Positions 7,048 to 28,092 are shown, counted from the stretch's first letter. The stretch is 37,162 bases of DNA from Acidiferrobacteraceae bacterium (GCA_003228915.1 QIGL01000013.1:1-37162), one strand, 5' to 3'. Notes: generated by a model from the letters alone, not told the origin. Program-made: numbers and translations.

Positions 7048-7959
7048 TTACTCTAATAACTTTTTCAGGCCATCTTCAATCGTTGTTGTTGGTGTTTTGC
7101 CAAAACAGGCTTCCAGTCGTGTAACAGCGGCACAGGAAAACTTTATGTCACCGGCGCGAGGTTTATCAAAAGATACTTCTAATTTTTTTCCACTAACGGA
7201 TTCTAATGCTGATTTCAGGTCAAGCAATGATGTTTGTTTGCCTGTGCCGACGTTCATAACAGAACCGGACATATCTGTGCGTGCCAGTGATTCAATTAAT
7301 AAATCTGCCAGGTCACCCACGTAAACAAAATCCCGCGTTTGCTTGCCATCGCCGAATATTGTCATCTCACGTTCGGACAATAAGCGGTCTGCCATAATAC
7401 TGATCACACCTGAATACGGTGACGAGGGATCCTGGCGTGGCCCGTAAATATTAAAAAAGCGAAATGAACTGGTGTTGAGTCCATACTGACGACTGTAATA
7501 ACCGAGATAATACTCCCCGCTTAACTTGTCAACGGCATAAGGTGTCAGTGGATTTAAGGCCGTCTCTTCTGTCACTGGCAGCACCTCGGTATCGCCATAA
7601 ATTGCTGCTGAGCAGGCATAAAGAAACCGTTTTACGCTCGAATTTCTACAGGCTTCGAGCAGGTTCAGGGTGCCATCAAAATTAGACTGGTGGGTACCGG
7701 CAGGATCATCAACACTGGCCTGGACAGATGCCACCGCGGCCAGATGAATCACCGCGTCAGCCTGCTCACAACATTTTGCCACCAGACCCTGGTCCCGGAT
7801 GTCACCTTCCTGGAAGCGAAGCAGCTCACTAGTGGGTAAATTTTCTATTTTGCCTGTCGACAGGTTATCAAGTACCTGGACCTGGTGGCCTTGCGCGATC
7901 AGCCGTTCGGCTACATGCGAGCCAATAAAGCCCGCGCCGCCTGTAATTAACACATGCAT
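7048..7959 (-). CDS. NAD-dependent nucleotide-sugar epimerase (WbpP/GalE-like)
   Basis: A 303-residue extended SDR enzyme. It shows the Rossmann loop GGAGFIGS (7-14), the adenine-binding DNLSTG (31-36), a catalytic Ser region ACSAAIYG (115-122) and the YAVDK catalytic pair (Tyr141/Lys145). RFFNIYGPRQ and the GDGKQTRDFVYVGDLA segment are typical of UDP-GlcNAc/UDP-Glc C4 epimerases, so conversion of UDP-GlcNAc to UDP-GalNAc is the best guess. It is divergent from the UDP-N-acetylhexosamine dehydrogenase at 8284, which suggests joint formation of an N-acetylhexosaminuronic acid donor. It might instead act on UDP-GlcA or UDP-GlcNAcA. The substrate call is inference. Confidence 0.85.
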   Translation of the reverse strand: MHVLITGGAGFIGSHVAERLIAQGHQVQVLDNLSTGKIENLPTSELLRFQEGDIRDQGLVAKCCEQADAVIHLAAVASVQASVDDPAGTHQSNFDGTLNLLEACRNSSVKRFLYACSAAIYGDTEVLPVTEETALNPLTPYAVDKLSGEYYLGYYSRQYGLNTSSFRFFNIYGPRQDPSSPYSGVISIMADRLLSEREMTIFGDGKQTRDFVYVGDLADLLIESLARTDMSGSVMNVGTGKQTSLLDLKSALESVSGKKLEVSFDKPRAGDIKFSCAAVTRLEACFGKTPTTTIEDGLKKLLE

Positions 7960-8283
7960 TTTATTTCCTTGCAGATAACTAGCTGAAGCACCCGAATATT
8001 ATTTTGTAACCCTGAAGTCCATTATAAACCAGATTGTGACGTGGTTCGTAGAAAAATTGCTCGAGACAGCTATAATCAATGAAATATAGCTAAATTGCAT
8101 GAAACCGAGTTCAACATACGCTCGGTTTCTTCTATTCTGGCTGTCATCAGTTAGAATTAGTACAAACTGGATTCGGAACAGGTTTATAGAAGATATTCAC
8201 CTAACTCATTGTATAATAAGAAACTATTGAGTTATAATCCCGTCTCATATATTAATCACACTTACATTACACTGGAGACAAAT
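7960..8283. other. Divergent intergenic region between epimerase and dehydrogenase
   Basis: No gene is seen in these 324 bases. The region must hold promoters in both directions. It contains a strong hairpin (8101-8129) and a possible sigma-70 type promoter for the rightward gene, with TATAAT at 8233-8238 and TTGTAT at 8209-8214. A second TATAAT lies at 8212-8217. A GGAG ribosome site at 8274-8277 sets the GTG start of the next gene. Confidence 0.5.
8101..8129. promoter_or_regulatory. Perfect 9-bp inverted repeat in divergent promoter region
   Basis: GAAACCGAG (8101-8109) and CTCGGTTTC (8121-8129) are perfect complements around an 11-base loop, followed by a T/C-rich stretch on the plus strand. 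It could be an operator for a dimeric regulator, an attenuator in the leader of the dehydrogenase gene, or a terminator of leftover upstream transcription. The lack of a clean T-run makes a terminator less likely. Confidence 0.5.
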
Positions 8284-9564
8284 GTGACAACAGTTGCTGT
8301 TATTGGCCTCGGCTATGTTGGTTTGCCCCTTGCCGTTGAATTTGGCAAGAAAATGAAAACCATTGGTTTTGATTTGAGTGAATCTAAAATTGAAAATTAT
8401 AAGAAGTTTATTGACCCAACAGGCGAGTGCAGCACTGAAGACCTGAAGGCGGCGAAACAACTGACTGTTTCTACAGACCCCACCGCCATCAGCGAGGCCG
8501 ATATGATTGTCATTGCCGTACCCACCCCTATCGATGCAGCCCACCAGCCAGATTTCAAGCCACTCATTGGCTCCAGCACCACGGTCGGTAAATATATGAA
8601 AAAGGGTTCAACCGTGATTTATGAGTCTACGGTTTACCCGGGAGCTACCGAAGAAGTTTGCATTCCAGTACTGGAAAAAAATTCCGGCCTGAAGTGGAAA
8701 AAAGATTTTAACGTTGGGTACTCGCCAGAACGCATTAACCCGGGTGACAAAAAACATACCCTGACCACTATTGTAAAAGTCGTGTCTGGCGATAGCCCTG
8801 AAATACTTGATCAAGTGTCCGATCTTTATGAAAGCATCATCACTGCCGGCGTTTACCGTGCCTCCAGCATCAAGACTGCAGAAGCTGCCAAGGTCATTGA
8901 GAATACTCAGCGTGATTTAAACATCGCGTTAATGAATGAGCTGTCACTCATTTTTAATAAAATCGGCATTGATACTGTTGAGGTACTGGAAGCCGCTGGA
9001 TCAAAATGGAATTTTCTTCCGTTCCGTCCAGGCCTTGTCGGTGGCCATTGTATTGGCGTTGACCCCTACTACCTGACACATAAGGCAGAAATGCTTGGCT
9101 ACCACCCTGATGTTATTATTGCCGGCAGGCGCATTAATGATGGCATGGGGAAATTTATTGCTGAGCAAACTATTAAACAAATGATTGAAACCGGTACCGC
9201 GATTAAAGAGTCAAAGGTAATCGTTCTGGGTCTTACCTTTAAAGAGGATTGCCCCGATTTAAGAAATTCCCGGGTTATTGATGTCATTAATGAACTGCAG
9301 GATTATGGTTCTGAAGTATATGTCCATGACCCGGTGCCCGAAGCTAAAGAGGCGCTGGAAGAATATGGAATAAAATTAATAGAATGGGATGATTTGCCGC
9401 AAGCCGATGCAATTGTTGCCGCCGTTTCTCACAAAGTATTCCTTGGGCAGCCTGCCAGTGTCTTTGCATCAAAAATTAAAAAGCATGGTTGCTTTATTGA
9501 TGTGAAATCAGCTTTTGATGCCAACGAAATAAAAGCGAATGGGTTAAGTGTCTGGCGGTTGTAA
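8284..9564 (+). CDS. UDP-N-acetylhexosamine 6-dehydrogenase (TviB/WbpO-like)
   Basis: A 426-residue NAD-dependent UDP-sugar dehydrogenase that oxidises C6 of a UDP-N-acetylhexosamine twice to give the uronic acid (for example UDP-GalNAcA or UDP-GlcNAcA). The GTG at 8284 is chosen because GGAG sits 6 bases upstream and translation then begins MTTVAVIGLGYVGLPLA; an upstream ATG would add an unconserved 25-residue tail. Seen are the GLGYVG loop (8-13), the STVYPGATEE segment, the YSPERINPGD segment, and GGHCIGVDPYYL with the catalytic Cys at 256. The length and YSPERINPGD resemble Vi-antigen TviB and WbpO rather than UDP-glucose dehydrogenase. It is the only polysaccharide gene on the plus strand on this side of the locus and is divergent from the epimerase. 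Confidence 0.92.
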   Translation: MTTVAVIGLGYVGLPLAVEFGKKMKTIGFDLSESKIENYKKFIDPTGECSTEDLKAAKQLTVSTDPTAISEADMIVIAVPTPIDAAHQPDFKPLIGSSTTVGKYMKKGSTVIYESTVYPGATEEVCIPVLEKNSGLKWKKDFNVGYSPERINPGDKKHTLTTIVKVVSGDSPEILDQVSDLYESIITAGVYRASSIKTAEAAKVIENTQRDLNIALMNELSLIFNKIGIDTVEVLEAAGSKWNFLPFRPGLVGGHCIGVDPYYLTHKAEMLGYHPDVIIAGRRINDGMGKFIAEQTIKQMIETGTAIKESKVIVLGLTFKEDCPDLRNSRVIDVINELQDYGSEVYVHDPVPEAKEALEEYGIKLIEWDDLPQADAIVAAVSHKVFLGQPASVFASKIKKHGCFIDVKSAFDANEIKANGLSVWRL

Positions 9565-9636: not shown

Positions 9637-10497
9637 TTAGGACTGGGGCGGGGGCGGGGTCGCGAACACAAAGTAAAGGGTATTTCCGCCTATCATTTCT
9701 TTTCCCTGCCATCGTCTGAAGACAATATTTCCACCAAGTTGGCTTACCATTCTGTCAAGATTATGAATATAAGATCCATCCCTGGCACGCACCATTGATT
9801 TACCCAGATCGCTGTTATCTTTTTCCGGAGAGGCGATGCCGGTAATTACCAGCATTGAAGCAGTATGTTGTAATAAATTTTTAACCAGTTCTTCCGCTTT
9901 GTCTTCTTCAAGGTAGATCACAGTACCTGCACATAAGATAACATCGTACATTTTATCGCTGAGAAAATTGGTAAGGTTTTCCATGTCGAGACATGTTAAT
10001 TGTATCTTTGACCCATTGGCCTGCAAGTATGATGCGCCCTTCTCTATCGCCTGTGCATCAATATCGATACCATCCAGTTTTTTCGCACTGACAAATACAT
10101 TATCTTCCAAATGCTTGAGCAAGTAACCCAGGGAAGACCCAACATCAAGCACAGATTTTATATCATTTTCATAATTTATTTTTAATTCTGTCAAAGCTGT
10201 TGTCATGTCAGAAAATAACAGCTTTCTGGATTCGTTAATATTATTTTCACCAAAGCGTTGCGAAATTTCGTAGGTATCTGCGTACCCGATGTGATTGGAC
10301 CATAAAAATTTATGGTACGCGTTAGCATCCTTTTCGGCCATATCACGGACAAGTTCCATTGACCAACCCGCCCGGTGATCGCCAGACAACCAGGATTGAC
10401 GACTAATAATTTTAGCTAACGATTTTCTTACGGCGAGCGGAATTACTTTTCTTATTAATTTTTTTGAAGACCGTACTATATTGTTTCGTAATGACAT
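9637..10497 (-). CDS. Class I SAM-dependent methyltransferase
   Basis: A 286-residue protein with the SAM-binding motif I SVLDVGSSLGYL (115-126), an acidic loop KLDGIDIDAQAIEKG after strand 2, and MYDVILCAGTVIYLEE as motif IV. The N-terminus is basic and resembles those of methyltransferases associated with glycans. It is the last gene of the minus-strand run, 28 bases after the ATP-grasp gene, and converges with the dehydrogenase gene. Its acceptor is unknown: a sugar hydroxyl, a carboxylate, or the product of the preceding ComA/ComB/ATP-grasp enzymes are all possible. Confidence 0.8.
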   Translation of the reverse strand: MSLRNNIVRSSKKLIRKVIPLAVRKSLAKIISRQSWLSGDHRAGWSMELVRDMAEKDANAYHKFLWSNHIGYADTYEISQRFGENNINESRKLLFSDMTTALTELKINYENDIKSVLDVGSSLGYLLKHLEDNVFVSAKKLDGIDIDAQAIEKGASYLQANGSKIQLTCLDMENLTNFLSDKMYDVILCAGTVIYLEEDKAEELVKNLLQHTASMLVITGIASPEKDNSDLGKSMVRARDGSYIHNLDRMVSQLGGNIVFRRWQGKEMIGGNTLYFVFATPPPPQS

Positions 10498-10525
10498 GAT
10501 TTTACCGGAATATTTTTAGGCAACA

Positions 10526-11752
10526 TTATTTTTCACTTGGCAGTTTTCTCAGGCCCAGTTTTTTTAATACCCAGTATAATATTTTCTTCTGGAAACTTAG
10601 CACTATCATAAGAAAAGGAACCGGGTCACGCCAGCTAAACCACGCACCTTCCTCGAGCCTGTTAAATGAAGAAAACCACTCTCCGAACTTAAGCGAACCT
10701 TCAGAGAAATAATGCAGGCTGGCAATGACATCGTAATCTTCAATTATCCAGCGTCGTCCTTCAATTGGCACGACAGGTCCATTATCACGCTGATTAGTTA
10801 GATCCATGTATTGACTGCGAATCACGTCAATGCCATTTTCCGCAACAAATATTCTGAATGCCTGGCCAACCCGGGGATTAATATCGAGAACTTTATATTT
10901 GCCATCCCTGGGGTCCAGCCGGTAACCAATATCGAGTATGCCGCTATAGTTTATATCTTTCATAAACTTTATTGTCAGGTCTGCGACATCCTGGTTCCAT
11001 TTATTTTCGCCCAGTGAAGCTGCACCCACATGGATCGGATATTGCCTTACCTTGTAACCCGTGAACGCACATAAACATTCTGAGTTAGCATCAAAGTATC
11101 CATTAAAAATAAAAACCTGGTCGTCGTCACCAGGAATATATTCTTGCAACATTAAATTAGGTTGCTTTGGATCTTCAAGTAACTTGTAATTTTCCAGTAA
11201 TTCTTCTTTATTGTTAACAATGACCATTTTCTTGCCGGTCCTGGCCTGTAACTTGTCTCCGTAGATGCCTTTCAGCATTAAAGGGAATTTGCCATCCTTG
11301 CAGTACTCCAGGACATCATCAAGATTACTGGGGAACAATGTGATTGCAGTGGGTACCTTATTCTCCTGGGCAATGGCATACATCCCTTCTTTGCTAATGA
11401 TGCGCTTTATGAGGTCGGCGTCATTTTCCGGGAATATAAAATACTCCCTGAGTTGTTCTGCATACTCGGCAATAAAAACGGCCATATTATCGGAAGTTTG
11501 AATTAATAATGCTTTTTTACCCAGTTCCTTGCCGATATTAAGTACAAATTCCAGGTACTCTAATGGTTTGGATTCATCAAATTTTTTAATGTGTTTTTTA
11601 TTGCAGTATTTGGACGTAAATCCCGGCGAGTAAGTATCTGCATCTACTGCAGAAATCGGCACACCGTAATAACCAAGGCTACGCATAATCGTAACCGCAC
11701 CAATTTTGCATGTGAGTATGACTACTGGCGTATCAGCATTATTTATTTTCAT
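10526..11752 (-). CDS. ATP-grasp carboxylate-amine ligase-like protein
   Basis: A 408-residue ATP-grasp enzyme. The N-terminal domain (VVILTCKIGAVTIMRSLGYYG, 10-30) is the pre-ATP-grasp Rossmann-like part. ATP-grasp features follow: FPLMLKGIYGDKL (156-168), LMLQEYIPGDDDQVF (200-214) and the metal-binding YKVLDINPRVGQAF (286-299). A C-terminal tail (FLMIVLSFQKKILYWVLKKLGL) may touch the membrane. Such enzymes activate a carboxylate as acyl phosphate and join it to an amine or thiol. Lying just after the ComA/ComB-like genes, it could couple their acid product to an amino sugar, or amidate a uronic acid. The substrate is inference; the fold is clear. Gaps to both neighbours are short (53 and 28 bases). 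Confidence 0.85.
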   Translation of the reverse strand: MKINNADTPVVILTCKIGAVTIMRSLGYYGVPISAVDADTYSPGFTSKYCNKKHIKKFDESKPLEYLEFVLNIGKELGKKALLIQTSDNMAVFIAEYAEQLREYFIFPENDADLIKRIISKEGMYAIAQENKVPTAITLFPSNLDDVLEYCKDGKFPLMLKGIYGDKLQARTGKKMVIVNNKEELLENYKLLEDPKQPNLMLQEYIPGDDDQVFIFNGYFDANSECLCAFTGYKVRQYPIHVGAASLGENKWNQDVADLTIKFMKDINYSGILDIGYRLDPRDGKYKVLDINPRVGQAFRIFVAENGIDVIRSQYMDLTNQRDNGPVVPIEGRRWIIEDYDVIASLHYFSEGSLKFGEWFSSFNRLEEGAWFSWRDPVPFLMIVLSFQKKILYWVLKKLGLRKLPSEK

Positions 11753-11805
11753 TAAATTTACTCTAGAATGTTTATACTTTTTTATATTACCCAGGCTTGC
11801 TTTAC

Positions 11806-12555
11806 TCAGGACACGACATTTCCGGCAACAATTTCCAGCTTGCCATCAATTAGTTGCGGAACCACATCAAGATCATCGAAGTGGTGTAACACAAACTCAA
11901 GGTCGTGCACCTGTCCGGATCGTTTTAGATAATCCGCACTTCTTCCTTCCCTGGCAGAATCAAGATTGGCGCCAGTCCAGCGTGCAATTAAGTCCCGCGT
12001 CCTGTTTGTCTCCACTTCATATCCTGCTTCAACCAGTTTCTCGGCAACCCAGGCACAGCCCATTTGATCCTCGCGTCGAAATTCTCCACGAGTACCAGCA
12101 CCAAGTACGGCAACTTTGTCATGACGACCGGCAATATATTTAGCCACTGCTGAAAAATTTCTGGCACAAGAAATATAAACTGCTTCCTTGCCAGTACCCA
12201 CTGAATTCATGAGCAGGCGTGTACCTGAAGATGAAAGCAGGATAATGGGTCGGGAAATATCGGTGAAATAGCCGGAGGGTACGGCTGTCAGCGCCATTGC
12301 CTGAACTGGACTATTTGTTAAATCAAACCCATAAGGGACGTTGCCACCCTGCTCGCCCATTAATAGCGGATCCTTGAGCGTTGCAGCCAGCACAAACGCA
12401 CCGTCAGTTGTTTGCGCCGGGTACACATCACGACCAAGACTAAGTGCGGTCGTAGCTGTGGTTGTTGCTCGTATTACATCTATTACGACAATGGCATACT
12501 CATCACGATAATGCTCGGCGCACGCCGGCAAATAATCTATTACAACGCTGGGCAT
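11806..12555 (-). CDS. comB: 2-phosphosulfolactate phosphatase-like (ComB family)
   Basis: ComB removes phosphate from 2-phospho-3-sulfolactate to give 3-sulfolactate in coenzyme M synthesis and in Bacillus spores. The 249 residues contain the expected blocks: VVIDVIRATTTATTAL (23-38), LMGEQGGN (65-72), GFDLTNSP (76-83), LLSSSGTRLL (106-115), and VLGAGTRGEFRREDQ (150-164) with a Cys-containing helix after it. All are close to the family pattern, so phosphatase function is likely, although the exact 2-phospho-acid is not proven. It lies 54 bases after the ComA-like gene and before an ATP-grasp gene. The third coenzyme M enzyme, ComC (sulfolactate dehydrogenase), is not present in the window, so the pathway probably stops at the hydroxy-acid. 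Confidence 0.88.
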   Translation of the reverse strand: MPSVVIDYLPACAEHYRDEYAIVVIDVIRATTTATTALSLGRDVYPAQTTDGAFVLAATLKDPLLMGEQGGNVPYGFDLTNSPVQAMALTAVPSGYFTDISRPIILLSSSGTRLLMNSVGTGKEAVYISCARNFSAVAKYIAGRHDKVAVLGAGTRGEFRREDQMGCAWVAEKLVEAGYEVETNRTRDLIARWTGANLDSAREGRSADYLKRSGQVHDLEFVLHHFDDLDVVPQLIDGKLEIVAGNVVS

Positions 12556-12609
12556 TTATTTTTCCTCAAGGAAATCTATTTTTATTTTATCAGCTGAAAA
12601 ATTTTGAGA

Positions 12610-13419
12610 TTATCCGCGCGGCCGCAAGCTTTCGTGCCTGAACGCATCTGAATGCAATCCCCGCCGGTAAATTTCTACACGTAACAATTCTTCCATTCTG
12701 ACATTACACAAATGAACTTCCTGGCCGAAATGATTTAGCATGGCAAACTGGCTGGGTTTGGTGGGTGCCTCAAAAATGAGCGCGTCGAAACCCAGCGCCT
12801 TCACAAACTGGTCAGCACCCTTGGTATCGAATGTTCCATCGATAGAAAAAAGACCAACATCCTGGGCGCTTTCTCTTGCCTCTACAACGATCTGTTTGGC
12901 GCCCAAATCGAGCCATTCCTTACCCTGGTCAATTAATTCGGCAACCACTTCATCGGTAAATGCGCCGCTATGTTTCTCGCCAATCTCAAACTGAACCTCC
13001 AAACCGCGCTCATTGGCCATGCGCATCACTTCTTTTGGCTTTTCCTTGAGCGGAATAAAACCTTCACCCGCTTCGAATCGTGTGATGCCCAGATCAGCAA
13101 CCAAATCCAGAAATTCTGGTAATTTTCCGAAGTTACAAGCCACCTCAAAAGTCCCGCCGCCCGTGACAGTTGGAATATTTAGCCTGTTTGCTGCATCAAT
13201 TTTTTGCCTGGTAGCGTTCTCATTCGCCACTTGCCAGCAAGCCATTGATATTTTCAAAATCGAAATCAGGTGCGCGCTCTGCTCAAGATGACTGATAAGT
13301 GTTGCCGGATCATAACCCGGGTCAAATGGCGAGGTTCTGCCTGGCATATCAGGTACACCGATTGACCTGAGGTAATCCCAGGTATGATGTTTATAGGTAT
13401 TTATATTATTATTTTTCAT
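12610..13419 (-). CDS. comA: Phosphosulfolactate synthase-like protein (ComA family, divergent)
   Basis: ComA adds sulfite to phosphoenolpyruvate to make 2-phospho-3-sulfolactate. This 269-residue TIM-barrel protein keeps the C-terminal family blocks: GAKQIVVEARESAQDVGLF (173-191), LIFEAPTKPSQFAML (214-228) and VHLCNV...LLRVEIYRRGLHSDAF (235-260). The N-terminal half is divergent. Where I recall bacterial and archaeal ComA having KFGWGTS, this protein has KISMACWQ (56-63). PGGTLFE is GGGTFEV (87-93), and the RTNKPRETG-like start is PGRTSPFDPG. These lie in or near the active site, so the substrate may have changed; plant HSA32 is another divergent relative of unknown activity. The gene starts a four-gene unit with ComB-like, ATP-grasp and methyltransferase genes, after a 336-base gap that could carry its own promoter. 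Confidence 0.8.
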   Translation of the reverse strand: MKNNNINTYKHHTWDYLRSIGVPDMPGRTSPFDPGYDPATLISHLEQSAHLISILKISMACWQVANENATRQKIDAANRLNIPTVTGGGTFEVACNFGKLPEFLDLVADLGITRFEAGEGFIPLKEKPKEVMRMANERGLEVQFEIGEKHSGAFTDEVVAELIDQGKEWLDLGAKQIVVEARESAQDVGLFSIDGTFDTKGADQFVKALGFDALIFEAPTKPSQFAMLNHFGQEVHLCNVRMEELLRVEIYRRGLHSDAFRHESLRPRG

Positions 13420-18065: not shown

Positions 18066-18914
18066 CTACTTGTTATTATGTCTGGCGGCCCTGGCAAAAT
18101 TTCGTTGGCGACGCCAATGCAATAGCTGATGGATTATATCAAATGCGCCTGATAATTTGGCTTTTATATCAGCGGGCCCATCTTTCTGGGTAATTTCAAC
18201 ACGTTTTAATAATAAATAATCAATGCCTGGTCTGTTTTTTCCTGGTGCCACAGTGACCGCGGCCTGGTAACCCGCCTCTTTGACAAAGTTCATCTCCCTT
18301 ACGCCAAAATCACCGGATGGATAGCAAAAATATTTTACCGGGTAGACTATTTTTTCTTCAATAATCTTTTTGCTCTCGGTTATTTCATCTTTCGATTTGG
18401 TTGAGTCTAATAATGACAAGTACGGATGGCTCAAGGTATGAGATCCTATTGTTATGTTTGGCATGGCGTGCAGTTCTTTTACTTCATCCCATGTCAGGTG
18501 TAGCCTGCCTTTTTCGTCTTTATATCTTGGATGCTGTTTCACCTGGTCACAAAACTGGCTCGTGATAAATATGGTTGCAGGCACATTATATTTCTTGAGT
18601 ATTGGCGCTGCATAAATCAGGTTATCCAGATAACCGTCGTCAAAAGTCACGATTACAGTTCTCTTTTTAATTACACCTGATTTTAACTCTGTTATTGCAT
18701 TGTCAAGGCTGATTATACGGTAATGCCCTGACAAATATTTTATTTGTTCTGTAAATCTTTCTGGTTCGACGGTGAGCTGATCATATTTATCATTTGTGCA
18801 TACCCGGTGATACATCAATATGCGTATACCGGGTCTCAGGATCTCCATTATTCTGGCAAACGGTAACATAGATCTTGTGATACTCGACCTGAGTATCTTT
18901 TTCAGGTTAATCAA
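18066..18914 (-). CDS. NodB-type polysaccharide deacetylase
   Basis: A 282-residue NodB-fold enzyme: IRILMYHRV (about 31-39), VIVTFDDGYLDNLIYAAP (motif 1 with Asp-Asp), TIGSHTLSHPYLS (motif 2, H-x3-H metal site) and KYFCYPSGDFGVREM (motif 3). It should remove N-acetyl groups from hexosamines of the polymer or a precursor. The start is a TTG at 18914 that overlaps the stop of the upstream glycosyltransferase by 8 bases and has AAAGGTG at good spacing. Translation coupling is likely. A basic N-terminus without a clear signal peptide suggests a cytoplasmic or membrane-associated location. Confidence 0.88.
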   Translation of the reverse strand: MINLKKILRSSITRSMLPFARIMEILRPGIRILMYHRVCTNDKYDQLTVEPERFTEQIKYLSGHYRIISLDNAITELKSGVIKKRTVIVTFDDGYLDNLIYAAPILKKYNVPATIFITSQFCDQVKQHPRYKDEKGRLHLTWDEVKELHAMPNITIGSHTLSHPYLSLLDSTKSKDEITESKKIIEEKIVYPVKYFCYPSGDFGVREMNFVKEAGYQAAVTVAPGKNRPGIDYLLLKRVEITQKDGPADIKAKLSGAFDIIHQLLHWRRQRNFARAARHNNK

Positions 18915-20019
18915 TTAACGCACCTTTACTCATCAACGTTTGCTTGTAAATCTGCTCATACTTTCTGGATACAGTTTCTGCACTATAATGCTGGCGGACC
19001 ATTTCTTTGGCAGCTGCACCAAGGCGCTGCCTCAGTGAATTATCGGTTATGGCATTAACCAGGTTTTCTGCTAGTGCTGAGCCATCACCCACATCAACCA
19101 ATAAACCGTTTTCATTGTGCGTGATGACATCCGGGATGCCACCAACCCGCGTGGCAATAACGGTTTTTCCCATGGCCATTGCTTCCAGGAGCGCCATTGG
19201 CAAGCCTTCCCATTTTGAGGGCATGACAAATATATCTATTGCCGCAAGGATTGCTGGTATATCCTGGCGTTGACCCATTAATGTAATTGCATCAAGGAGG
19301 CCTTGTTTTTTAATATTTTTTTCAATGTCCGCTCTCAATTCTCCTTCGCCAACAAAATAGAAATGAAAATCTGAACACTTGTCTTTGATGGCCTTAATTA
19401 CCGGGATCAGATCCTGGTGCCCCTTTGCTGGATGCAATCTGCCAATAACAACCAGGTTAACAGTATCAGGTTCTGTTGCCAGGTTAATTGGTGAGACATC
19501 CTCAAACCGTCGCAAATCGATACCATTTGCAACAACCTTGATATGTTTAGCGGATATGCCGTCATCCTGGATCAAAACCTTGGCGACTTCATCAGAACAG
19601 GCAATGATATTCGTGGATATTTTTGCCAACACCCTGTCTATGAGCCTGTGAATTTTTGTTTTCCAGGTATTCGTACTGTGAACGGTATTTACTATGCACG
19701 GTACTCTCGCAAGAAAAGCGGCAAGACGCCCCCAACTATCTGCGGTAAAAAGATGTGTATGCACGACGTCTGCATTATTCCGGCGCAGCCATTTTCGCAG
19801 ACGAAATATCAGGCCAATATCCAGTTTATGCTTGCGCTTAAAAATAATAACAGGCACATCCATATTTTCTAATTCAGCAACAAGTTCGCCACCCGCTACC
19901 AGACAAACAACTGTAAATTTGAATTCATGTGACCTGTTTTTCAGCACGTCAACAAGCAGGCGTTCGGCGCCATCGGGAGGCAAACGATCAATAATGTGGA
20001 CCACATGGGGTCGCGTCAT
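18907..20019 (-). CDS. Family 4 glycosyltransferase
   Basis: A 370-residue GT-B enzyme: HVVHIIDRLPPDGAERLLVDVL opening, DVVHTHLFTADSWGR, CIVNTVHSTNTW, then the donor domain LVVIGRLHPAKGHQDL, FHFYFVGEGELR, ITLMGQRQDI and MPSKWEGLPMALLEAMAMGK with the E-x7-E signature. It resembles the GT4 enzymes of PEP-CTERM-type EPS loci. It overlaps the Wzy-like gene by 4 bases (ATGA) and the deacetylase by 8 bases, so it is within a tightly coupled operon. Confidence 0.9.
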   Translation of the reverse strand: MTRPHVVHIIDRLPPDGAERLLVDVLKNRSHEFKFTVVCLVAGGELVAELENMDVPVIIFKRKHKLDIGLIFRLRKWLRRNNADVVHTHLFTADSWGRLAAFLARVPCIVNTVHSTNTWKTKIHRLIDRVLAKISTNIIACSDEVAKVLIQDDGISAKHIKVVANGIDLRRFEDVSPINLATEPDTVNLVVIGRLHPAKGHQDLIPVIKAIKDKCSDFHFYFVGEGELRADIEKNIKKQGLLDAITLMGQRQDIPAILAAIDIFVMPSKWEGLPMALLEAMAMGKTVIATRVGGIPDVITHNENGLLVDVGDGSALAENLVNAITDNSLRQRLGAAAKEMVRQHYSAETVSRKYEQIYKQTLMSKGALID

Positions 20020-21494
20020 TGCGAGAGTTCCTTTTCAAGCGTTAATTTTTCCAGTTCCATCATTAAGTGTGTAATGACGGCAAAATAAATCCATATATAA
20101 CCACTAACGTCGATGCCAATCATTCTTGATCCAAACATGTTAATGACCGTCATACCCCCCGCTGTCGCCGCACCACCCAGGCCCACTGCCCGGGCAAATT
20201 TCTCCGGGTGTTTGCGATAAATTTTTGCACTTTGTAAATAGAGTTTCAGGATAATTATCAGAAAAGCAATGAGCGCAGGAATACCCATTTGCGAACTAAT
20301 CCAGAAATACATGTTATGAGTATCGCCTTCCCTGACATACTCATCTGTATAATCATTTTTCAGTCTTCTGAAATTTTTAAACCCTTTACCAAATACCGGG
20401 CTTTCCAGGGTCATTACGTAAGCTGCTTTCCATAAAATTAGACGAGCTTCTGAGCTCGCATCCAGTTTTTCTTCTTCTACCCGCCCTTCCTGCGTTTGCC
20501 CCATGCGATCAAGTAATGACGACGGTATTAATTGTGGTAATGTAATAACTACTGCGAGGCCCATGGCGATACCAATGACAAGAAACCATTTGCCACGCAC
20601 ATAACCAGTTACAAAAGCCGCCAGGCCAAATCCCAAATAAGCACCGCGAGAAAACGTTGACAGCAATACCTTAACTGTTACAGCAAAATACGGGATAAGC
20701 ACCCAGGTTGGCCACCTTCTATAATAAAGTAAAAAGATAGCAAGGAATGGGCCTATGTTGTATACAATAAAGGCGCCGAAATCGTTTGGCTGCAATTGCG
20801 GACCCAGCACTCTTGATTTTTCTATTGAGGCATAACCCATTTTCTCTATCATTTCTTCGGCACCTAACAGAATGCTAATTGTTGTTCCCAGCATTAAATA
20901 AACAACAACCCGCCTGGCCATTTGCCCATCGCGAATTAAATTTAAAAATAAAAAGAATACAAAGAATTGATCAAGCCAACCTTTATACTGGGGCAAAACA
21001 TCGTCAAGCAAATATCCCAGACCACCCGGGCTCATTATCAATGTCACAACTGAAAAGGAACTTAATATTGCCCAAATAAACACAAGTTTCGTATTTGGCA
21101 TTTTAGCAAACATCGGACGCTCCTCTTTGCGTGAAATGACAAACAAGGAAATGATGAGCATCATAATGAGCATATTTGTTCCATTAATGCCTGGTATAAT
21201 TGGAACGACTATTTGCTTGCTCAGCGGCATATATAAAATGAAAGCTGCCAACAAGCGCTCTGGATCAGTTAGACTTTTTTTGAATATTAGCAAGCCATAT
21301 GTCCCGGCCACTCCATACAAGACAAATTTTGGTAAATGAATACCCATGCCAAGTATCAAGCCCAATAAAATTCCTGGAACAGCCAGAAACAAAATCGTTG
21401 ACTTCAGTTGCTTCCCTGTCCAGTAAAATTCTGGACGGGATGTTTCTTTCTTGTCTTTTTGATTACCTGGTTGCGATTCGTCTATAGAGTTCAT
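20016..21494 (-). CDS. O-antigen ligase/polymerase-like membrane protein (Wzy/WaaL superfamily)
   Basis: A 492-residue protein with about ten or more hydrophobic helices. The family region near the end includes SSEARLILWKAAYVM, PVFGKGFKNFRRL, and THNMYFWISSQMGIPALIAF, the large loop and following helix typical of Wzy_C/O-antigen ligase proteins. It should polymerise or transfer lipid-linked repeat units on the periplasmic side. The ATG at 21494 (MNSIDESQP) is chosen; a TTG 18 bases upstream would also be in frame. With this start it overlaps the end of the preceding deacetylase gene by 32 bases, and it overlaps the following GT4 by ATGA. Confidence 0.88.
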   Translation of the reverse strand: MNSIDESQPGNQKDKKETSRPEFYWTGKQLKSTILFLAVPGILLGLILGMGIHLPKFVLYGVAGTYGLLIFKKSLTDPERLLAAFILYMPLSKQIVVPIIPGINGTNMLIMMLIISLFVISRKEERPMFAKMPNTKLVFIWAILSSFSVVTLIMSPGGLGYLLDDVLPQYKGWLDQFFVFFLFLNLIRDGQMARRVVVYLMLGTTISILLGAEEMIEKMGYASIEKSRVLGPQLQPNDFGAFIVYNIGPFLAIFLLYYRRWPTWVLIPYFAVTVKVLLSTFSRGAYLGFGLAAFVTGYVRGKWFLVIGIAMGLAVVITLPQLIPSSLLDRMGQTQEGRVEEEKLDASSEARLILWKAAYVMTLESPVFGKGFKNFRRLKNDYTDEYVREGDTHNMYFWISSQMGIPALIAFLIIILKLYLQSAKIYRKHPEKFARAVGLGGAATAGGMTVINMFGSRMIGIDVSGYIWIYFAVITHLMMELEKLTLEKELSQ

Positions 21495-22254
21495 GATATA
21501 TTCTATTTCCAACCATTAGTTTTAATAACGTCTTCAGCTTATTTATTATTTTTTGTTTATAAATTTCAATTGAGTTTCCTTGTGCCAATAAAAGAAATTT
21601 ATTTCTGCTAGTTAATCCTTTCAGTGCCAGCCTCGGGATAATTTTTCTATTATCTCCTTTAATTCCTGTTCCAATATCTGAAGTAAAGAACATTTTGTAA
21701 CCAACTTTCACTCCATTGGTAATATCTCTCGCTTGATAACGACCACCAGGGAAGGAAATCGAGGTGACATTGTTACCAACATTTTTCTCAATAATGTTTT
21801 TCGATAATTGTAATTCTGTAAATGCTGATTCTGCATTCAGATCCGATATAAATTTATGGGTCTGCCCATGGGACTGGATGCTCATACCTGTTTCATGCAT
21901 TTCTTTAAGCTGTGACCAGTTACAAAATTCCTTTTTTTTATCTATTAAATCACTAGTAATAAAAAATATTGCGCTCATGTTTCTTTTTTTTAGTTCTGGA
22001 TATGCATGATAATAAAAGCTGTTATGGCCATCATCAAATGTGAGTAATACGCTGTTATTTTTAAATTTATCACTGGTAGCTTTGTAAACTTCATCTGGCG
22101 ATAATACTTTAATATTATTATCATTTAGTATATCCAGTTGGGCGCAGAATTCTGACGTTGATATTGCATACGGACGATCCTCCTGATCGATTAACGACAG
22201 TTCTTCCTCGTCAGCATAAAGTGCATGGTACATAAGCGTGGAGAAGCGTTTCAT
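21463..22254 (-). CDS. NodB-type polysaccharide deacetylase
   Basis: A 263-residue NodB-fold protein: FSTLMYHALY at the start, SVLLTFDDGHNSFYYHAYP (motif 1), MSIQSHGQTHKFIS (motif 2, H-x3-H), VTSISFPGGRYQARDI (motif 3). The start at 22254 (MKRFST) is chosen over an ATG 12 bases upstream because it overlaps the previous stop as ATGA and has GGGAG about 5 bases upstream. The C-terminal basic helix (YKQKIINKLKTLLKLM) may contact the membrane. It probably deacetylates a sugar of the polymer. It is the second of three clear NodB enzymes in the operon. Confidence 0.87.
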   Translation of the reverse strand: MKRFSTLMYHALYADEEELSLIDQEDRPYAISTSEFCAQLDILNDNNIKVLSPDEVYKATSDKFKNNSVLLTFDDGHNSFYYHAYPELKKRNMSAIFFITSDLIDKKKEFCNWSQLKEMHETGMSIQSHGQTHKFISDLNAESAFTELQLSKNIIEKNVGNNVTSISFPGGRYQARDITNGVKVGYKMFFTSDIGTGIKGDNRKIIPRLALKGLTSRNKFLLLAQGNSIEIYKQKIINKLKTLLKLMVGNRIYHELYRRIATR

Positions 22255-23378
22255 GCTTTCTCCCATTTTACTTGTACCTTGTTAAACAAAAACTGTTTTA
22301 ATGCGATAACAGCAGAACTGTTTAACTGCATAAAAACAACTATGAAGCTTACAATTTTATTATTTCTGATTGCAGTTGAATACATGCCCGCCAGGCCCAG
22401 AAAATAAAATATACTTTGTAATATTACAAGCCACAGGTAAAACGAGCCCGATGACATGAGTGAACCGTAAAATGCTGTCACCATTGTATAAGGCACAATT
22501 AACCTGAAGACTTTATGTGATATGAATTGGAAAAATATCGGGTTTTTCCAGGGCGAGAAAAGCCATGGGTTCCACGAAAATGATTGGTAATTTCCTGTTA
22601 ATGTCCTGATTTTTCTAATTTTTTCACCAGCAATATCTTCTTGTGAAATATCATATAACTTTGCATTAGTTTCCAGCACGATTCGTTTGCCAGTCGCAAG
22701 TATCTGCATTGGTACTTCAAAATCGTCTAACAAGGTTTCTTTTCTTAATGGGATATAATCTTGTTTTCGAATTGCATACAGTGCACCCGTCACGCCTGAA
22801 GTGGCGTAAACCTTACTTTCAGATTTCCTGATCCATTTTTCGTATCGCCAATACAGGCCTACATTCTTACCAATGCCTGAATCCGATACCTTATGATTAA
22901 GTTCGCCACTGACTGCACCTATCCCCGGCTGCATTAAGCGAGCAACAAGATATTTTACGGCCAGTACGTCAACCTCTTGCCGAACATCGGTGAACACAAT
23001 TACTTCAGAACTTACATTTTCAACAGCCACATTCAATGCAGTAGGTTTTCCTTGTCGCTCGGGATAAGTAATACATTTCACTTGTGGGATTTTAGCAAGA
23101 AATTCATTTGTATCGTCAGTCGAACCATCAGATACAAACATCATGCTTAACTTGTCCTTGGGGTAATCAAGCGCATTAATATTATTAATCTTTTTTTCAG
23201 CGTGGCCTCTTTCATTATAGACGGGGATAACAATGGTAACGGCAGGCCATTCCTGTTGTATATGGATGTCCAGGTGTAATTCATTTCTGGTTTTTGCCAA
23301 CAACCATATAATTAGCGGGTAACCAGCATAGGTATAGACAATGAAACTGGCCGATATCCAAAATATTGATTCTGTCAT
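22251..23378 (-). CDS. Family 2 membrane glycosyltransferase
   Basis: A 375-residue GT-A enzyme. An N-terminal membrane segment (SIFWISASFIVYTYAGYPLIIW) is followed by the GT2 core: VTIVIPVYNERGHAEKKI, MMFVSDGSTDDTNEF, VIVFTDVRQEVD (DxD-like region), TLLDDFEVPMQIL and the KIRKIRTLTGNYQSF region equivalent to the QxxRW loop. Two or three C-terminal membrane helices follow. This layout is that of processive or polyprenyl-linked GT2 enzymes. The ATG at 23378 is preferred over an upstream TTG at 23414, leaving a 4-base gap after the previous gene. It may start or extend the repeat unit. Confidence 0.87.
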   Translation of the reverse strand: MTESIFWISASFIVYTYAGYPLIIWLLAKTRNELHLDIHIQQEWPAVTIVIPVYNERGHAEKKINNINALDYPKDKLSMMFVSDGSTDDTNEFLAKIPQVKCITYPERQGKPTALNVAVENVSSEVIVFTDVRQEVDVLAVKYLVARLMQPGIGAVSGELNHKVSDSGIGKNVGLYWRYEKWIRKSESKVYATSGVTGALYAIRKQDYIPLRKETLLDDFEVPMQILATGKRIVLETNAKLYDISQEDIAGEKIRKIRTLTGNYQSFSWNPWLFSPWKNPIFFQFISHKVFRLIVPYTMVTAFYGSLMSSGSFYLWLVILQSIFYFLGLAGMYSTAIRNNKIVSFIVVFMQLNSSAVIALKQFLFNKVQVKWEKA

Positions 23379-23382
23379 TATA

Positions 23383-24357
23383 TTATCCAGTGGCTCTTGA
23401 CAAGAGCCAGACAAAGTCTTCTATGTTGTCAGCGCCTGTGGGTATTCTTTTTATTTCCATCAGGTTTGTCTGCCGGTAATTAATACCTTCATTGGTTGTG
23501 AAGGCGAGCTCAAAACCATACTTGTCCAGCACACGAATGCTATTGTCATTATAATCTTCTGTAGAACCATTGGGGTAAGCAAAATATTTAGGCATTATGC
23601 CTGTTTCTTCTGCTATCCGATCCCGACAATATTTTATTTCATGTTCTAATTGTTGAGTATCAATACTCGACATGATCGGGTGTGTATGCGTATGTCCGCC
23701 GTAGGTGATCAGGTTTGATGAATCACGCACTTCCTGCCAGCTTAACATTTGCCGTTCCAATTCTGGCTGGTCAGTTACGCCAAGGTTTTCATAAAAAAGC
23801 TTTAATAATTCCAGTCTATGTTTATTTGATTGTTTTTTTAAGTGGTTTTTTGCCCTGGTCACTATGTTTTTTTTATCTTCTTTTGTGGTTAACTTTAATT
23901 TTTCATCTTTTTCCCATGGTAAATATACCTCGGTTTTACTGGATTGATAAACTGCCCAAAAAACCTGTTCTGTCCATATGAGTCCGCCTTCGTCTGGTGG
24001 CTGGGTCGCCAGGAAAACAATCGCAGGTATCGATAACGCTTCCAGGACTGGGTATGCCTGCTCGTAACAACACCTGTAACCATCATCAAAGGTGACTAGT
24101 ACATAAGGTTTACTGCTACGCGGTTGATTAACTGCCCATTGGAATTTACCAGGCGCTATCGCATTACAATTATTTTTTATCCAAAGCATTTGTGCTCTGA
24201 AATTTTCCATATCCTGGCTCGGGAAAAGCGAATCCTTGTCACCCACGCGATGGTACATGAGCACAACCACGCCAGGCCTCCTGAAATAGCAGCCAACAAT
24301 ATTCCAGAAAAACCTGTTGGCCCAAATCTTTTTTACCAGTTTTTTGAGAATTCCCAT
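23383..24357 (-). CDS. NodB-type polysaccharide deacetylase, long form
   Basis: A 324-residue NodB-fold protein: GVVVLMYHRVGDKD near residue 30, YVLVTFDDGYRCCYEQAYP (motif 1), then an insertion of about 70 residues rich in Lys/Glu (TKEDKKNIVTRAKNHLKKQ), ITYGGHTHTHPIMSS (motif 2) and PKYFAYPNGSTEDYNDN (motif 3). The insertion between motifs 1 and 2 is seen in EPS-locus deacetylases of the PEP-CTERM type. No signal peptide is seen. It follows the flippase gene with only 3 bases between them and precedes the GT2 gene by 4 bases. Confidence 0.87.
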   Translation of the reverse strand: MGILKKLVKKIWANRFFWNIVGCYFRRPGVVVLMYHRVGDKDSLFPSQDMENFRAQMLWIKNNCNAIAPGKFQWAVNQPRSSKPYVLVTFDDGYRCCYEQAYPVLEALSIPAIVFLATQPPDEGGLIWTEQVFWAVYQSSKTEVYLPWEKDEKLKLTTKEDKKNIVTRAKNHLKKQSNKHRLELLKLFYENLGVTDQPELERQMLSWQEVRDSSNLITYGGHTHTHPIMSSIDTQQLEHEIKYCRDRIAEETGIMPKYFAYPNGSTEDYNDNSIRVLDKYGFELAFTTNEGINYRQTNLMEIKRIPTGADNIEDFVWLLSRATG

Positions 24358-24360
24358 TAA

Positions 24361-25845
24361 CTAGCGATTCCTGATTTTGTAGAAGTAATCTTTTGTTATA
24401 TTCCTGATCTGTGCATCAATAGCAAATACAGAAATTGCGTATATTATCCCACCCAGGACCATCTGTAATAAAAGTGTAAGCAATGGACTGCTGGTAACAA
24501 TTTGCGTTATTGCTGCATACATCAAGAACGCTGAAAACCCAAATTTAAAAATCGGGATCCATGGTATTTCGATGTTCAATATTTTTGAAGAAACCATTTT
24601 ATTAGCCGTTGCCAATAGCACATAACTAATGAGGGTTGCGATGGCAGCACCAGTGATCCCATATTCTGGAATCAGTACGACATTAAGAGCCACGTTGACT
24701 GCTGCAGTTACCATGGTAATCAGCATTAATATTTTCCCTTTTTTATGGATATAGAGGCCAGCACTAAAAAAAGCCACACTGCCATTGATTACCATTCCTG
24801 TTATTACATAAGGGATAATGACCGCACCACTGCTGTACTTTTCTGAAGCAAGTAGTGTTAAAAGGCCGGGGCCTACAACCGATAGACCGGCTATAACCGG
24901 AAAGCCTACCAATATATAAAAAAATAATGATTTTTCTACAAACGCCCGTGTTGCTGCCTCGCCTTTTTCATTCCACATACGAATATAGATGGGTGGCAAC
25001 GCCTGATATAAGGACATAATTACGATAATCCTGACGTAATCACATAAACTGTAAGCTGCCGCGTATACACCTAGCTGTGATGCGCCCAGATAGACCTGTA
25101 TTAAATAGCGGTCGCCAATATTTAGTAGCGTCCATGCCAGTTCATAACCCACAAGCGGAATGCCAAAAATTAGCATTTTCTTTAGCAGTGCCGGGCTGAA
25201 TTCCTTTATTGATAATTTAACATTTTTTAAAACCAAAACCGAAAGCGTAATTACTGCAGCCAATTCAACAACAATAGTTGCTGAATAAAGGCCAATTAAA
25301 TCTCTTGAGATAAAATACAGGGTAATTACTACCCCGGTAAGTATTGAGTACTTTCTAATGACACGATATGTGACAAGTTTCTTGCTTAGCTGGCGCGCTC
25401 TGAAAATATTGGCAAATGCGCTTTCCATTATTCTTATAATTACCAGAATTGCAGTTATGGTGAAAAGTGCCTTTAGCCTTGGATCATTCCACCAGGAATC
25501 TGGTGAGACATAAACAATGAACAACCATATCAGGGTTGCAATTGTACCTATTCCTAACATGCCATAAACTACGGTCGCGTAGAACTTTTTCAGGTCTATG
25601 CCATCTTTTCCTGATTCCGCATCAGAATAAAAACGAACAATTGGGTTTTGTAATCCGAGTTTTCCCACAGCAACCAGGAAAGTTAAAGTGACTGCAACCA
25701 GGCTTAATAGTCCATACTCATCAGTTGATAATAAGCGGGTAAAAATCGGGAATGAAATAAATCCGGCGCCTGTAACAAGAATACTCCCTAAAGAGTAATT
25801 CTTTATATGCATAAATAATTTGTTAAGCCCGCTTCCTTCTTTCAT
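24361..25845 (-). CDS. Polysaccharide flippase (Wzx/MATE-like, RfbX family)
   Basis: A 494-residue protein with about 14 hydrophobic helices. The start (MKEGSGLNKLFMHIKNYSLGSILVTGAG) and the FPIFTRLLSTDEYGLLSLV segment match the RfbX/polysaccharide transport family that flips lipid-linked repeat units across the inner membrane. The segment LNIGDRYLIQVYLGASQLGVYAAAYSL is the typical second-half repeat. Its partner is probably the Wzy-like protein at 20016. It starts the tightly packed operon that runs down to the comA gap. Confidence 0.9.
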   Translation of the reverse strand: MKEGSGLNKLFMHIKNYSLGSILVTGAGFISFPIFTRLLSTDEYGLLSLVAVTLTFLVAVGKLGLQNPIVRFYSDAESGKDGIDLKKFYATVVYGMLGIGTIATLIWLFIVYVSPDSWWNDPRLKALFTITAILVIIRIMESAFANIFRARQLSKKLVTYRVIRKYSILTGVVITLYFISRDLIGLYSATIVVELAAVITLSVLVLKNVKLSIKEFSPALLKKMLIFGIPLVGYELAWTLLNIGDRYLIQVYLGASQLGVYAAAYSLCDYVRIIVIMSLYQALPPIYIRMWNEKGEAATRAFVEKSLFFYILVGFPVIAGLSVVGPGLLTLLASEKYSSGAVIIPYVITGMVINGSVAFFSAGLYIHKKGKILMLITMVTAAVNVALNVVLIPEYGITGAAIATLISYVLLATANKMVSSKILNIEIPWIPIFKFGFSAFLMYAAITQIVTSSPLLTLLLQMVLGGIIYAISVFAIDAQIRNITKDYFYKIRNR

Positions 25846-25928
25846 AAAAGGTCGCTCCTGATTAATTTACTATGCATATTTTGGAATAATGATGGCGCTG
25901 ATATTTTATTGTTATCTAAGAATTATAA

Positions 25929-26867
25929 CTAATTATTTTTCTTGAATGCGTGGTAGAAGTCCTTCGTGCTACTAAATTCTATACCCTCTCCTTTGCACCA
26001 ATTAAGGACATTTTGCATATCGTCAATAAAGCCTGACACTTCGTTCAGTGTTTGCGGATACGGCGAAGCCTTTGGGATAACTTCCATTGAATGGAACATC
26101 ATATTGATGACAATAACATGATTATCCCTATATTTATTGAGATGATAACGGACGACTTTTTTCATTTTTCCTATGGAGGAAAACCAGGGCCGGAACCATT
26201 GCGGCCCACGCAGAAATCTTTTTTTTACCGTCACCGGTATTTCAAGCAGGCCCTTGCTGGTCTGAGAGTCCGCTTCGATCAGCTTCCCGCTGGCAGGAAA
26301 ATAGGGTTGTTCCGGTGCCCTGCGGTAGTCTACCTGTCCGTTAGGCTCCTCCCATAATATGTGGGGCGTTACACTTGTGTCGACCAGGTATCCCAGTTTT
26401 TGCAATGATTCAATAGTGTTAGCGCAAGCTCCAAACCTGCCTGCCCGAAAACTGGCGGGTTGATACCCAAAGTTATCAACAAATAACTTTGTTAAATTTT
26501 CCAGTTTTTTATATTCTACCTCAGGCGCATAACTGCATTGAAAATCCGGGCTATCAATCCCGGCATAATCATGAAATTTTTTTTCTGGCTCAATAAAGGC
26601 TGCATGCAAATGCGTTCCAAATTCATGGTTACCATTTAAATTCCTCAGGGATTGAACGCTTTCCTGATCCTCCATTACTTCAACAGTCAATAAATAGGTT
26701 GGTATCACGCCAATACTTTCAAAGGCAGGCTGCAGACGTTCAGGGAGACCTTTATTGATTGAGTCGAACGTGAGTGGTAAGGACCTGGCCCAGTCCGGGC
26801 CATGATCACATTCCGTGTCTATTGTAACTATTAGATAAACCTTGCTGCATTTAGATTTATAATTCAT
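25929..26867 (-). CDS. Atypical polysaccharide-deacetylase-like protein
   Basis: A 312-residue protein of the NodB/WalW-like superfamily. Motif 1 is TIDTECDHGPDW instead of TFDDG, and motif 2 is FGTHLHAAFIEPE with an H-x-H spacing instead of H-x3-H. FRAGRFGACANTIESLQKLGY follows and MMFHSMEV forms a late motif. These differences leave metal-binding residues but alter the pattern, so catalysis is uncertain. Similar proteins occur in EPS loci. It has its own upstream region with duplicated sites (26881-26956) and may start a transcript for the genes below. Confidence 0.72.
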   Translation of the reverse strand: MNYKSKCSKVYLIVTIDTECDHGPDWARSLPLTFDSINKGLPERLQPAFESIGVIPTYLLTVEVMEDQESVQSLRNLNGNHEFGTHLHAAFIEPEKKFHDYAGIDSPDFQCSYAPEVEYKKLENLTKLFVDNFGYQPASFRAGRFGACANTIESLQKLGYLVDTSVTPHILWEEPNGQVDYRRAPEQPYFPASGKLIEADSQTSKGLLEIPVTVKKRFLRGPQWFRPWFSSIGKMKKVVRYHLNKYRDNHVIVINMMFHSMEVIPKASPYPQTLNEVSGFIDDMQNVLNWCKGEGIEFSSTKDFYHAFKKNN

Positions 26868-26880
26868 GGGGTTGACATCT

Positions 26881-26956
26881 AATATTCAAATAAATTCTTT
26901 CGTTTGGTTATCGCTTACCGCCAAACACATCAATATTCAACTGAAGTCTTTCGTTT
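26881..26956. promoter_or_regulatory. Twin 25-bp direct repeats with inner hairpin upstream of deacetylase-like gene
   Basis: AATATTCAA-N6-TCTTTCGTTT occurs at 26881-26905 and again at 26932-26956, 51 bases apart, nearly five helical turns. Between them GTTTGG (26902-26907) and CCAAAC (26921-26926) form a small stem whose minus strand reads GGCGGTAAGCGA, close to the ops/RfaH element (GGCGGTAGCGT) with one extra A. The layout suggests two binding sites for one regulator before the start at 26867. Confidence 0.5.
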
Positions 26957-26988
26957 TAGTGCACGAATTATAATTTATTGTTGTGCTA

Positions 26989-28092
26989 TTATCTGCCGAC
27001 TGATTTGGCTTTCTTCGGGGCCATTGATTGTTTTTCCAACCCGAGCTTCCTTGATATCTCGTCAAGCGCCCTGCTGATTATTGCCAATTCTTTTGCGGCA
27101 TTATTTGTTGCAGGTAAATACTTCTCCAGTTTAATCAGCCTTTCATTGAGTGCGTTTAATGCTTTTGTATTTTTTTCTATCGTGAGTTGCATTCCTGCGC
27201 TTAAAACTGGTGATTGCGATACGTCTTCGACATTAACTTTATTCTTGTCTGCAACCTTCCTGCTTTTTTCCTTGCGCTCTGAGTAAGGAACCCACTGCAG
27301 CTCCTCAACAGCTATTTTGATCGTATCTACATTAACCTTTTCAAGATCATCGGCATATGCACATGTAAGGGCTGTATCACACAGGCTATTAACCAGACGA
27401 GGAACGCCCCCGGTAAACCTGTGAATCGCAGAATAAACATCGCTGGAAAATATTTTTTTGTTCTTTGCGCCCGCCACTTTCATACGGTGATCGATATAGT
27501 GCTCTGTTTCAGACTCTGTCAGCGAACTAATATGGAATCGTAACCTCACACGCTGCAACAGCTGCTCAAGCTCAGGCGATTCGATTACATGATTTAATTC
27601 TGGCTGACCAAGTAATATGATATGCAATATCTTTTCTTTATTGGTCTCCAGGCAGGACAACATCCTGACTTCTTCCAGAACTCTCGGGCTCAAATTTTGA
27701 GCATCGTCAATCAACAAAACAATTTGTTTACCGGCGGCATAATTTTCGATTAAAAAAGTATTAAGCATATCCATAAGCTCAACTTTTTTAGCGCGAAAAG
27801 GATTTAAGCCGAATTCAACAAGTACTGCCTGCAGGAATTCAACTTCATCCAGCTGAGTTTGAAATATTTTAGCAACAACGACATTGCTTGTTAGCTCAGT
27901 CAAAAACTTTTTAAGTAAAATTGTTTTGCCAGCACCAACGCCGCCAGTAATGACAACAAAACCCTCGCTGTTCCAGGTGCTATAATCCATATATGCCATG
28001 GCGCGGGTATGGGCATGGCTCATGTACAGATAATCCGAATCAGGTGTTAGCTGAAATGGCTGTTCCTTCAATTTGAAAAATTCAAGATACAT
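26989..28092 (-). CDS. ExeA-like AAA ATPase of EPS/PEP-CTERM locus
   Basis: A 367-residue cytoplasmic ATPase. The MYLEFFKLKEQPFQLTPD opening is characteristic of the PEP-CTERM-locus putative secretion ATPases (TIGR03015) and of ExeA. Walker A is GGVGAGKT (50-57), Walker B IVLLIDDAQ (124-132), and GGVPRLVNSLCD is the sensor-2 region. The C-terminal ~90 residues form a Lys-rich linker and a helical segment (KNTKALNALNERLIKLEK) likely to be a coiled coil. It overlaps the preceding barrel gene as TAATG, so translation is coupled. It probably energises assembly or secretion of the polymer rather than synthesis itself. Confidence 0.9.
   Translation of the reverse strand: MYLEFFKLKEQPFQLTPDSDYLYMSHAHTRAMAYMDYSTWNSEGFVVITGGVGAGKTILLKKFLTELTSNVVVAKIFQTQLDEVEFLQAVLVEFGLNPFRAKKVELMDMLNTFLIENYAAGKQIVLLIDDAQNLSPRVLEEVRMLSCLETNKEKILHIILLGQPELNHVIESPELEQLLQRVRLRFHISSLTESETEHYIDHRMKVAGAKNKKIFSSDVYSAIHRFTGGVPRLVNSLCDTALTCAYADDLEKVNVDTIKIAVEELQWVPYSERKEKSRKVADKNKVNVEDVSQSPVLSAGMQLTIEKNTKALNALNERLIKLEKYLPATNNAAKELAIISRALDEISRKLGLEKQSMAPKKAKSVGR

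Follow-up and report, generated by a model that had tools for sequence, protein, structure and literature searches.

A ComA-ComB-ATP-grasp unit recurs in exopolysaccharide loci of several bacterial phyla and may attach sulfolactate to the polymer

Known uses of ComA and ComB

The enzymes ComA and ComB are known from the biosynthesis of coenzyme M and from the sulfolactate of spores. The coenzyme M enzymes of M. jannaschii belong to the same families as the pair described here, with the same fold, the same conserved polar residues, and the sequential action that we predict for our pair. However, the two sets are 28-34% identical, ours falls in a separate clade with seven fixed changes, its own genome lacks the ComC family, and the gene that comes next encodes an ATP-grasp enzyme, within loci for exopolysaccharide (EPS) synthesis. 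The YitD/YitC system of Bacillus subtilis spores is a two-enzyme ComA plus ComB route with 3-sulfolactate as its end product, as proposed here. No ligase is known from that system, whereas the present pair is fixed to an ATP-grasp enzyme and to polysaccharide genes.

Bacterial polysaccharides with N-malyl or N-lactyl amino sugars are known, and these likewise bear a 2-hydroxyacid as an amide on an amino sugar. The acyl group that we propose differs in being a sulfonate-bearing acid, predicted to be joined by an ATP-grasp enzyme. Anionic sulfur is likewise placed on sugar polymers in EPS sulfated by PAPS-dependent sulfotransferases and in glycans carrying SQD1-made sulfoquinovose, but in the proposed product the C-S bond would lie in the acyl group and derive from sulfite and PEP, with neither O-sulfation nor a sulfosugar. 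The full-text literature that we searched for sulfolactate or phosphosulfolactate together with exopolysaccharide or glycosyltransferase clusters, outside of which most subscription journals lie, describes no such system. This agrees with an earlier reading of this DNA, made from the sequence alone (hereafter the sequence-only reading), to which no described polymer of this type was known.

The four-gene row and its surroundings

The window, i.e., the whole stretch of 37,162 nt that was analyzed, has at the end of an EPS locus the four minus-strand open reading frames reported by the sequence-only reading, and the matches to PF02679 and PF04029 bear out its naming of two of them as ComA-like and ComB-like (Table 1). 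The gene order is ComA-like, ComB-like, ATP-grasp, methyltransferase, with intergenic gaps of 28, 53, and 54 nt. Between genus-mates, the dN/dS values of ComB (0.012), ATP-grasp (0.016), and ComA (0.036) are the lowest in the locus (0.038-0.19 in eight other tested genes), and hence these three are functional genes under strong constraint. The G+C content is 0.47-0.49 in ComA and ComB (window 11806-13419) and about 0.34-0.45 in the ATP-grasp, the methyltransferase, and most of the remaining genes of the locus. The search for RNA elements found none, and the promoter scan gave no signal above that of shuffles.

The surroundings are an XrtA/PEP-CTERM-type EPS locus. The chain-length protein (TIGR03007, 323.8 bits for a cut-off of 278.9) and the sugar transferase (TIGR03013, 563.6 bits for a cut-off of 393.4) exceed the family thresholds, and matches to TIGR03015 and TIGR03018 fall slightly under theirs. 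The exosortase EpsH (PF09721) was not found among the scanned proteins of the window and is present in a relative, L036. PgaB-like deacetylases and a PgaC-like glycosyltransferase occur within this Wzx/Wzy-type XrtA locus (window 18066-24357), and most of these genes are retained in L004/L006. A further protein is probably a divergent deacetylase. Its homologues match PF01522 weakly in three cases out of seven (best E 0.0017), its HxH and FRxGR motifs align in register with those of the other deacetylases, and the homologues lie directly upstream of ComA in several relatives.

Table 1. Features of the window, in order of position.
Feature	Position	Strand	Evidence and remarks
NAD-dependent sugar epimerase, GalE/TviC-like	7048..7959	-	TIGR01179 198 bits, NF011728 180 bits, both below cut-offs
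TviB-like UDP-GlcNAc 6-dehydrogenase (uronic acid of a HexNAc)	8209..9564	+	NF011729 499 bits, below cut-off 592
Class I SAM methyltransferase, accessory	9637..10497	-	286 aa; PF13649, E=3e-11 (Pfam)
ATP-grasp ligase	10526..11752	-	408 aa; PF02786, E=8e-7, CPSase-type (Pfam); predicted sulfolactate carboxylate activation and amine joining
ComB-like (2-phosphosulfolactate phosphatase family)	11806..12555	-	249 aa; PF04029, 117 bits, cut-off 26.4, E=7e-34 (Pfam); predicted sulfolactate release
ComA-like (phosphosulfolactate synthase family)	12610..13419	-	269 aa; PF02679, 154 bits, cut-off 25.2, E=5e-45 (Pfam); predicted sulfite addition to PEP
Protein with signal-like N-terminus, possibly a beta-propeller from the look of its sequence	15682-16893		no family match; conserved in the genus
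Three PF01522 polysaccharide deacetylases (18066-18914, 21463-22266, 23383-24357), two glycosyltransferases, Wzy	18066..24357	-	
Wzx, XrtA-type ATPase, porin-like protein, tyrosine kinase, chain-length protein, Wza, initiating sugar transferase	24361..35619	-	
Probable divergent NodB-type polysaccharide deacetylase, fourth in locus	25929..26867	-	motifs, weak PF01522 homologue matches
DnaJ-domain ORF, unrelated to EPS genes	32958-34181	+	

Recurrence of the unit and conservation of its enzymes

When 84,980 species genomes were scanned with the window's ComA protein, nine loci came up, all nine with ComB and the same ATP-grasp enzyme close by. One of them (L003) is of the same genus as the window and is labelled Acidiferrobacteraceae. 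The other eight come from a Chromatiales MAG, a gammaproteobacterium, a Desulfobacteraceae MAG, a deltaproteobacterial MAG (L007), three Nitrospira-type genomes, and Zixibacteria. To avoid circularity, the ATP-grasp profile was also used alone as the query on samples of three other phyla. This search recovered cassette loci that were already known and four new strong ones (G500, G990, G1026, and G1027, 530-701 bits), in each of which ComA and ComB directly adjoin the ATP-grasp gene. A weaker match in G760 (424 bits, 41% identity), with no ComA nearby and with inositol-type genes and a sulfatase as neighbors, was set aside as an outgroup.

ComA, ComB, and the ATP-grasp enzyme are thus a conserved unit, hereafter the cassette, found in 13 loci besides the window, in Gammaproteobacteria, Desulfobacteraceae, the deltaproteobacterial MAG, Nitrospirota, and Zixibacteria. 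At least four bacterial phyla carry the trio in polysaccharide gene clusters, nearly all of the 13 other loci being clearly of this kind, and the linkage that the sequence-only reading proposed to look for across EPS loci proved to be strict in several phyla. The proteins are 50-70% identical across phyla, and their pairwise identities correlate (r 0.80-0.92, or 0.52-0.68 once near copies are removed). In a Pseudomonadota sample of 398, the ATP-grasp profile matched the window's genome only, and cassette ComA occurs in 2 of the 57 genomes of the window's order, both from one genus. The unit is therefore rare and scattered, a distribution expected of horizontal transfer. None of the 18 plasmid ComA records (all below 60% identity) is a cassette ComA; of the two that we inspected, one is the CoM locus of Xanthobacter and the other a ComA-ComB pair from Legionella. 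A plasmid of Legionella lytica (L087:5820-8732) encodes a protein of 970 aa that ends in a ComA domain at its C-terminus, and ComB comes next.

The methyltransferase does not belong to this core. Besides the window's genus, its homologues were found only at L007, where the homologue is fused to PGA_cap, and at L036, i.e., in 3 of 13 lineages. All four genes do stand in a row in the window, as the sequence-only reading had it, but the fourth is no fixed member of the unit, and its suggested role in capping the product found no specific support.

In a tree of 58 ComA-family proteins, all 13 cassette ComAs form one clade (support 100/100) on a long stem branch. A Desulfobacterota group, several members of which lie beside ComB, is placed nearest to it, though the support is weak. 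The cassette ComA scores 155.2 bits against the NCBIfam equivalog TIGR03849, below the cut-off of 280, and its predicted model is a TIM barrel that matches M. jannaschii ComA best in the PDB (1qwg, E 6.8e-16), with B. subtilis 1u83 as the third match. Sixteen polar positions that M. jannaschii ComA has in common with the canonical group are identical in the cassette enzyme (in Mj numbering D20, K43, E79, E103, E133, K137, E168, R170, E171, E205, K209, Q212, N227, E237, R240, and D246); Xanthobacter Xaut_5052 has 15 of them, D246 being E. Active-site roles were assigned from conservation and from K137, the proposed general acid, which corresponds to K149 in the window. Every cassette ComA carries K21P, D40S, T48C, T76G, S105G, D157W, and R244H, at positions that are invariant in the canonical group. 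We read this as an enzyme that has probably kept PEP chemistry with a tuned substrate pocket. Since the conserved polar residues are kept, yet seven changes are fixed, we go only as far as calling sulfite its likely substrate.

The wider family is diverse. Another clade of ComA paralogues (L039, L042, L057, L059, L064-L073) has lost K137, R170, K209, Q212, N227, D246, and others, and probably has a different activity. One genome of the Desulfobacterota sample (G856, L074-L077) has seven ComA-family genes, several in tandem, and L063:1450-2925 encodes a ComA-ComB fusion protein of 491 aa.

ComB scores 88.8 bits against TIGR00298, under the NCBIfam equivalog cut-off of 175. It retains the invariant motif D, R, E, NSP, N, D, D and shares D26, R29, E68, N81, S82, N133, D163, and D218 with canonical ComBs, N110S being the single change within the conserved motif. 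The predicted model of the ATP-grasp enzyme (pLDDT 78) matches the CPSase-like 2pn1, PurK, biotin carboxylase, and L-amino acid ligases. It has an ATP-grasp fold with seven invariant residues, K121, K161, E204, D274, D290, N292, and R294, which in this family bind ATP and Mg. It is plausible as an acyl-phosphate-forming ligase.

Several loci have further genes. A LarA-type 2-hydroxyacid racemase joins the cassette in 7 of the 13 loci (Nitrospira, Desulfobacteraceae, and Zixibacteria), the run in L011 being broken by an assembly gap; the window and its genome have no LarA. Sulfolactate is the sulfonate analogue of malate. The nearest solved relative of these racemases is the malate racemase Mar2/LarAH6, and they keep both catalytic histidines and the residues that bind NPN (equivalents of LarA R75, H108, H174, K184, and H200, invariant in the alignment; roles from PMC11770544), but the C-terminal substrate domain has diverged and the score is 192 for an NCBIfam cut-off of 500. 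The substrates of LarA enzymes are 2-hydroxyacids (PMC7583248, PMC11770544), and sulfolactate is unmentioned in the LarA literature searched. Three unrelated enzyme families thus indicate the same kind of small acid. L007 and L036 lack LarA and carry a B12-binding radical SAM enzyme in its place at the cassette, possibly for an alternative modification of the acid. These two enzymes (L007:10798-12183 and L036:11060-12439) are 62% identical to each other. Nine loci contain a second ATP-grasp enzyme, of peptide type and akin to the synthetases of cyanophycin and N-acetylglutaminylglutamine. DegT aminotransferases near the cassette in L005 and L034, and FemAB and deacetylase-like proteins near ComA in relatives, none of them universal, suggest amino sugars as acceptors; the window has no aminotransferase.

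Proposed chemistry, alternatives, and implications

We propose that ComA would add sulfite to PEP to give phosphosulfolactate, from which ComB would remove the phosphate to yield (R)-sulfolactate. The ATP-grasp enzyme would convert the carboxylate of sulfolactate to an acyl phosphate and from there to an amide, the amine being that of a building block of the EPS (an amino sugar in the likeliest case, possibly an amino acid linker), leaving a polymer that carries sulfonate groups. In Nitrospira, Desulfobacteraceae, and Zixibacteria, the LarA-type racemase may invert sulfolactate first and the cyanophycin-synthetase-like enzyme may extend it. We infer the nucleophile, the ligase substrate, and the acceptor of this route. 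That the acid is sulfolactate seems probable to us, and that it ends in the polymer or a polymer precursor rather likely. We rate the complete proposal, in which 3-sulfolactate is produced by the cassette and incorporated into EPS through an amide linkage made by the ATP-grasp enzyme, as about evenly balanced, and the placement of the linkage as an N-acyl group on an amino sugar as tentative. The broader picture, of a horizontally shared and scattered pathway to sulfonated polysaccharides with sulfolactate made from sulfite and PEP, optional racemization by a nickel-pincer LarA, and N-acyl installation by an ATP-grasp enzyme, falls somewhat short of even. The substrates of an ATP-grasp enzyme cannot be read from its sequence, which counts against our best explanation. 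The sulfolactate decoration put forward by the sequence-only reading was right in outline as to gene identity, linkage, and EPS context, and its acid and amine linkage stand as predictions.

It is unlikely, in our judgment, that the cassette ComA and ComB add a different nucleophile to PEP, giving another 3-substituted lactate whose attachment to the polymer would be as proposed for sulfolactate. The clade-specific ComA substitutions, the great length of the stem branch, and the ComB change would fit such a shift, but all other catalytic-type residues are kept, and both ComB and a malate-racemase-like LarA suit a dianionic three-carbon 2-hydroxyacid. Alternatively, sulfolactate might be esterified or serve as a glycosyl acceptor, as malate does for BshA, while the ATP-grasp enzyme acts on another compound. 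Several GT4 enzymes of the locus do show a likeness to BshA, with scores of 117-139 bits where the cut-off is 273.7, and a further GT4 adjoins the cassette in relatives. However, this likeness is generic to GT4, with similar scores against other GT4 models, and the ATP-grasp gene follows ComA and ComB more faithfully than any glycosyltransferase does, which makes this use of sulfolactate decidedly unlikely.

The sequence-only reading had offered amidation of a uronic acid by the ATP-grasp enzyme as its own alternative; ComA and ComB would then serve a separate need. The TviB-like dehydrogenase, which would make that uronic acid, lies next to the cassette in the window and in L003, as does the TviC/GalE-like epimerase, but the two are not beside it in most other loci, where ComA, ComB, and ATP-grasp stay together, and sulfolactate has no amine to donate; so weakened, amidation appears very unlikely. 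A free sulfonate, as an osmolyte or a cofactor like coenzyme M, with an incidental placement among EPS genes, would agree with the known roles of ComA and ComB, but the EPS context recurs in several phyla. Moreover, the claim that ComC is lacking holds genome-wide, with no match to the Ldh_2 family (PF02615) in a genome that is 95.9% complete and has a single ComA, and we rejected the coenzyme M pathway for this genome on that account. No genes of the ComDE or XcbC-E routes were seen within the window. We hold a free product to be extremely improbable. As to the sulfite of the favored sulfolactate route, an assimilatory PAPS reductase was not found in the genome, a weak PF01507 match being a TilS-like ORF. 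Acidiferrobacteraceae include sulfur oxidizers and, as this is the family of the genus-mate, dissimilatory sulfite is a possible source.

Acyl decoration of EPS is already known, and the acid itself would be new if confirmed. A vague annotation becomes a three-enzyme pathway open to in vitro testing, which, if the proposal is true, would also give a genetic handle for sulfonated biopolymers and a candidate natural role for an uncharacterized LarA branch. It would add a third use of ComA and ComB, beyond coenzyme M and spores, and a third way, after sulfotransferases and sulfoquinovose, of placing anionic sulfur on glycans. At least four phyla would then make polysaccharides whose stable sulfonate groups come straight from sulfite. 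In biofilms this would be a sink of organosulfur that has not been described, and it would supply substrate to sulfolactate-degrading bacteria.
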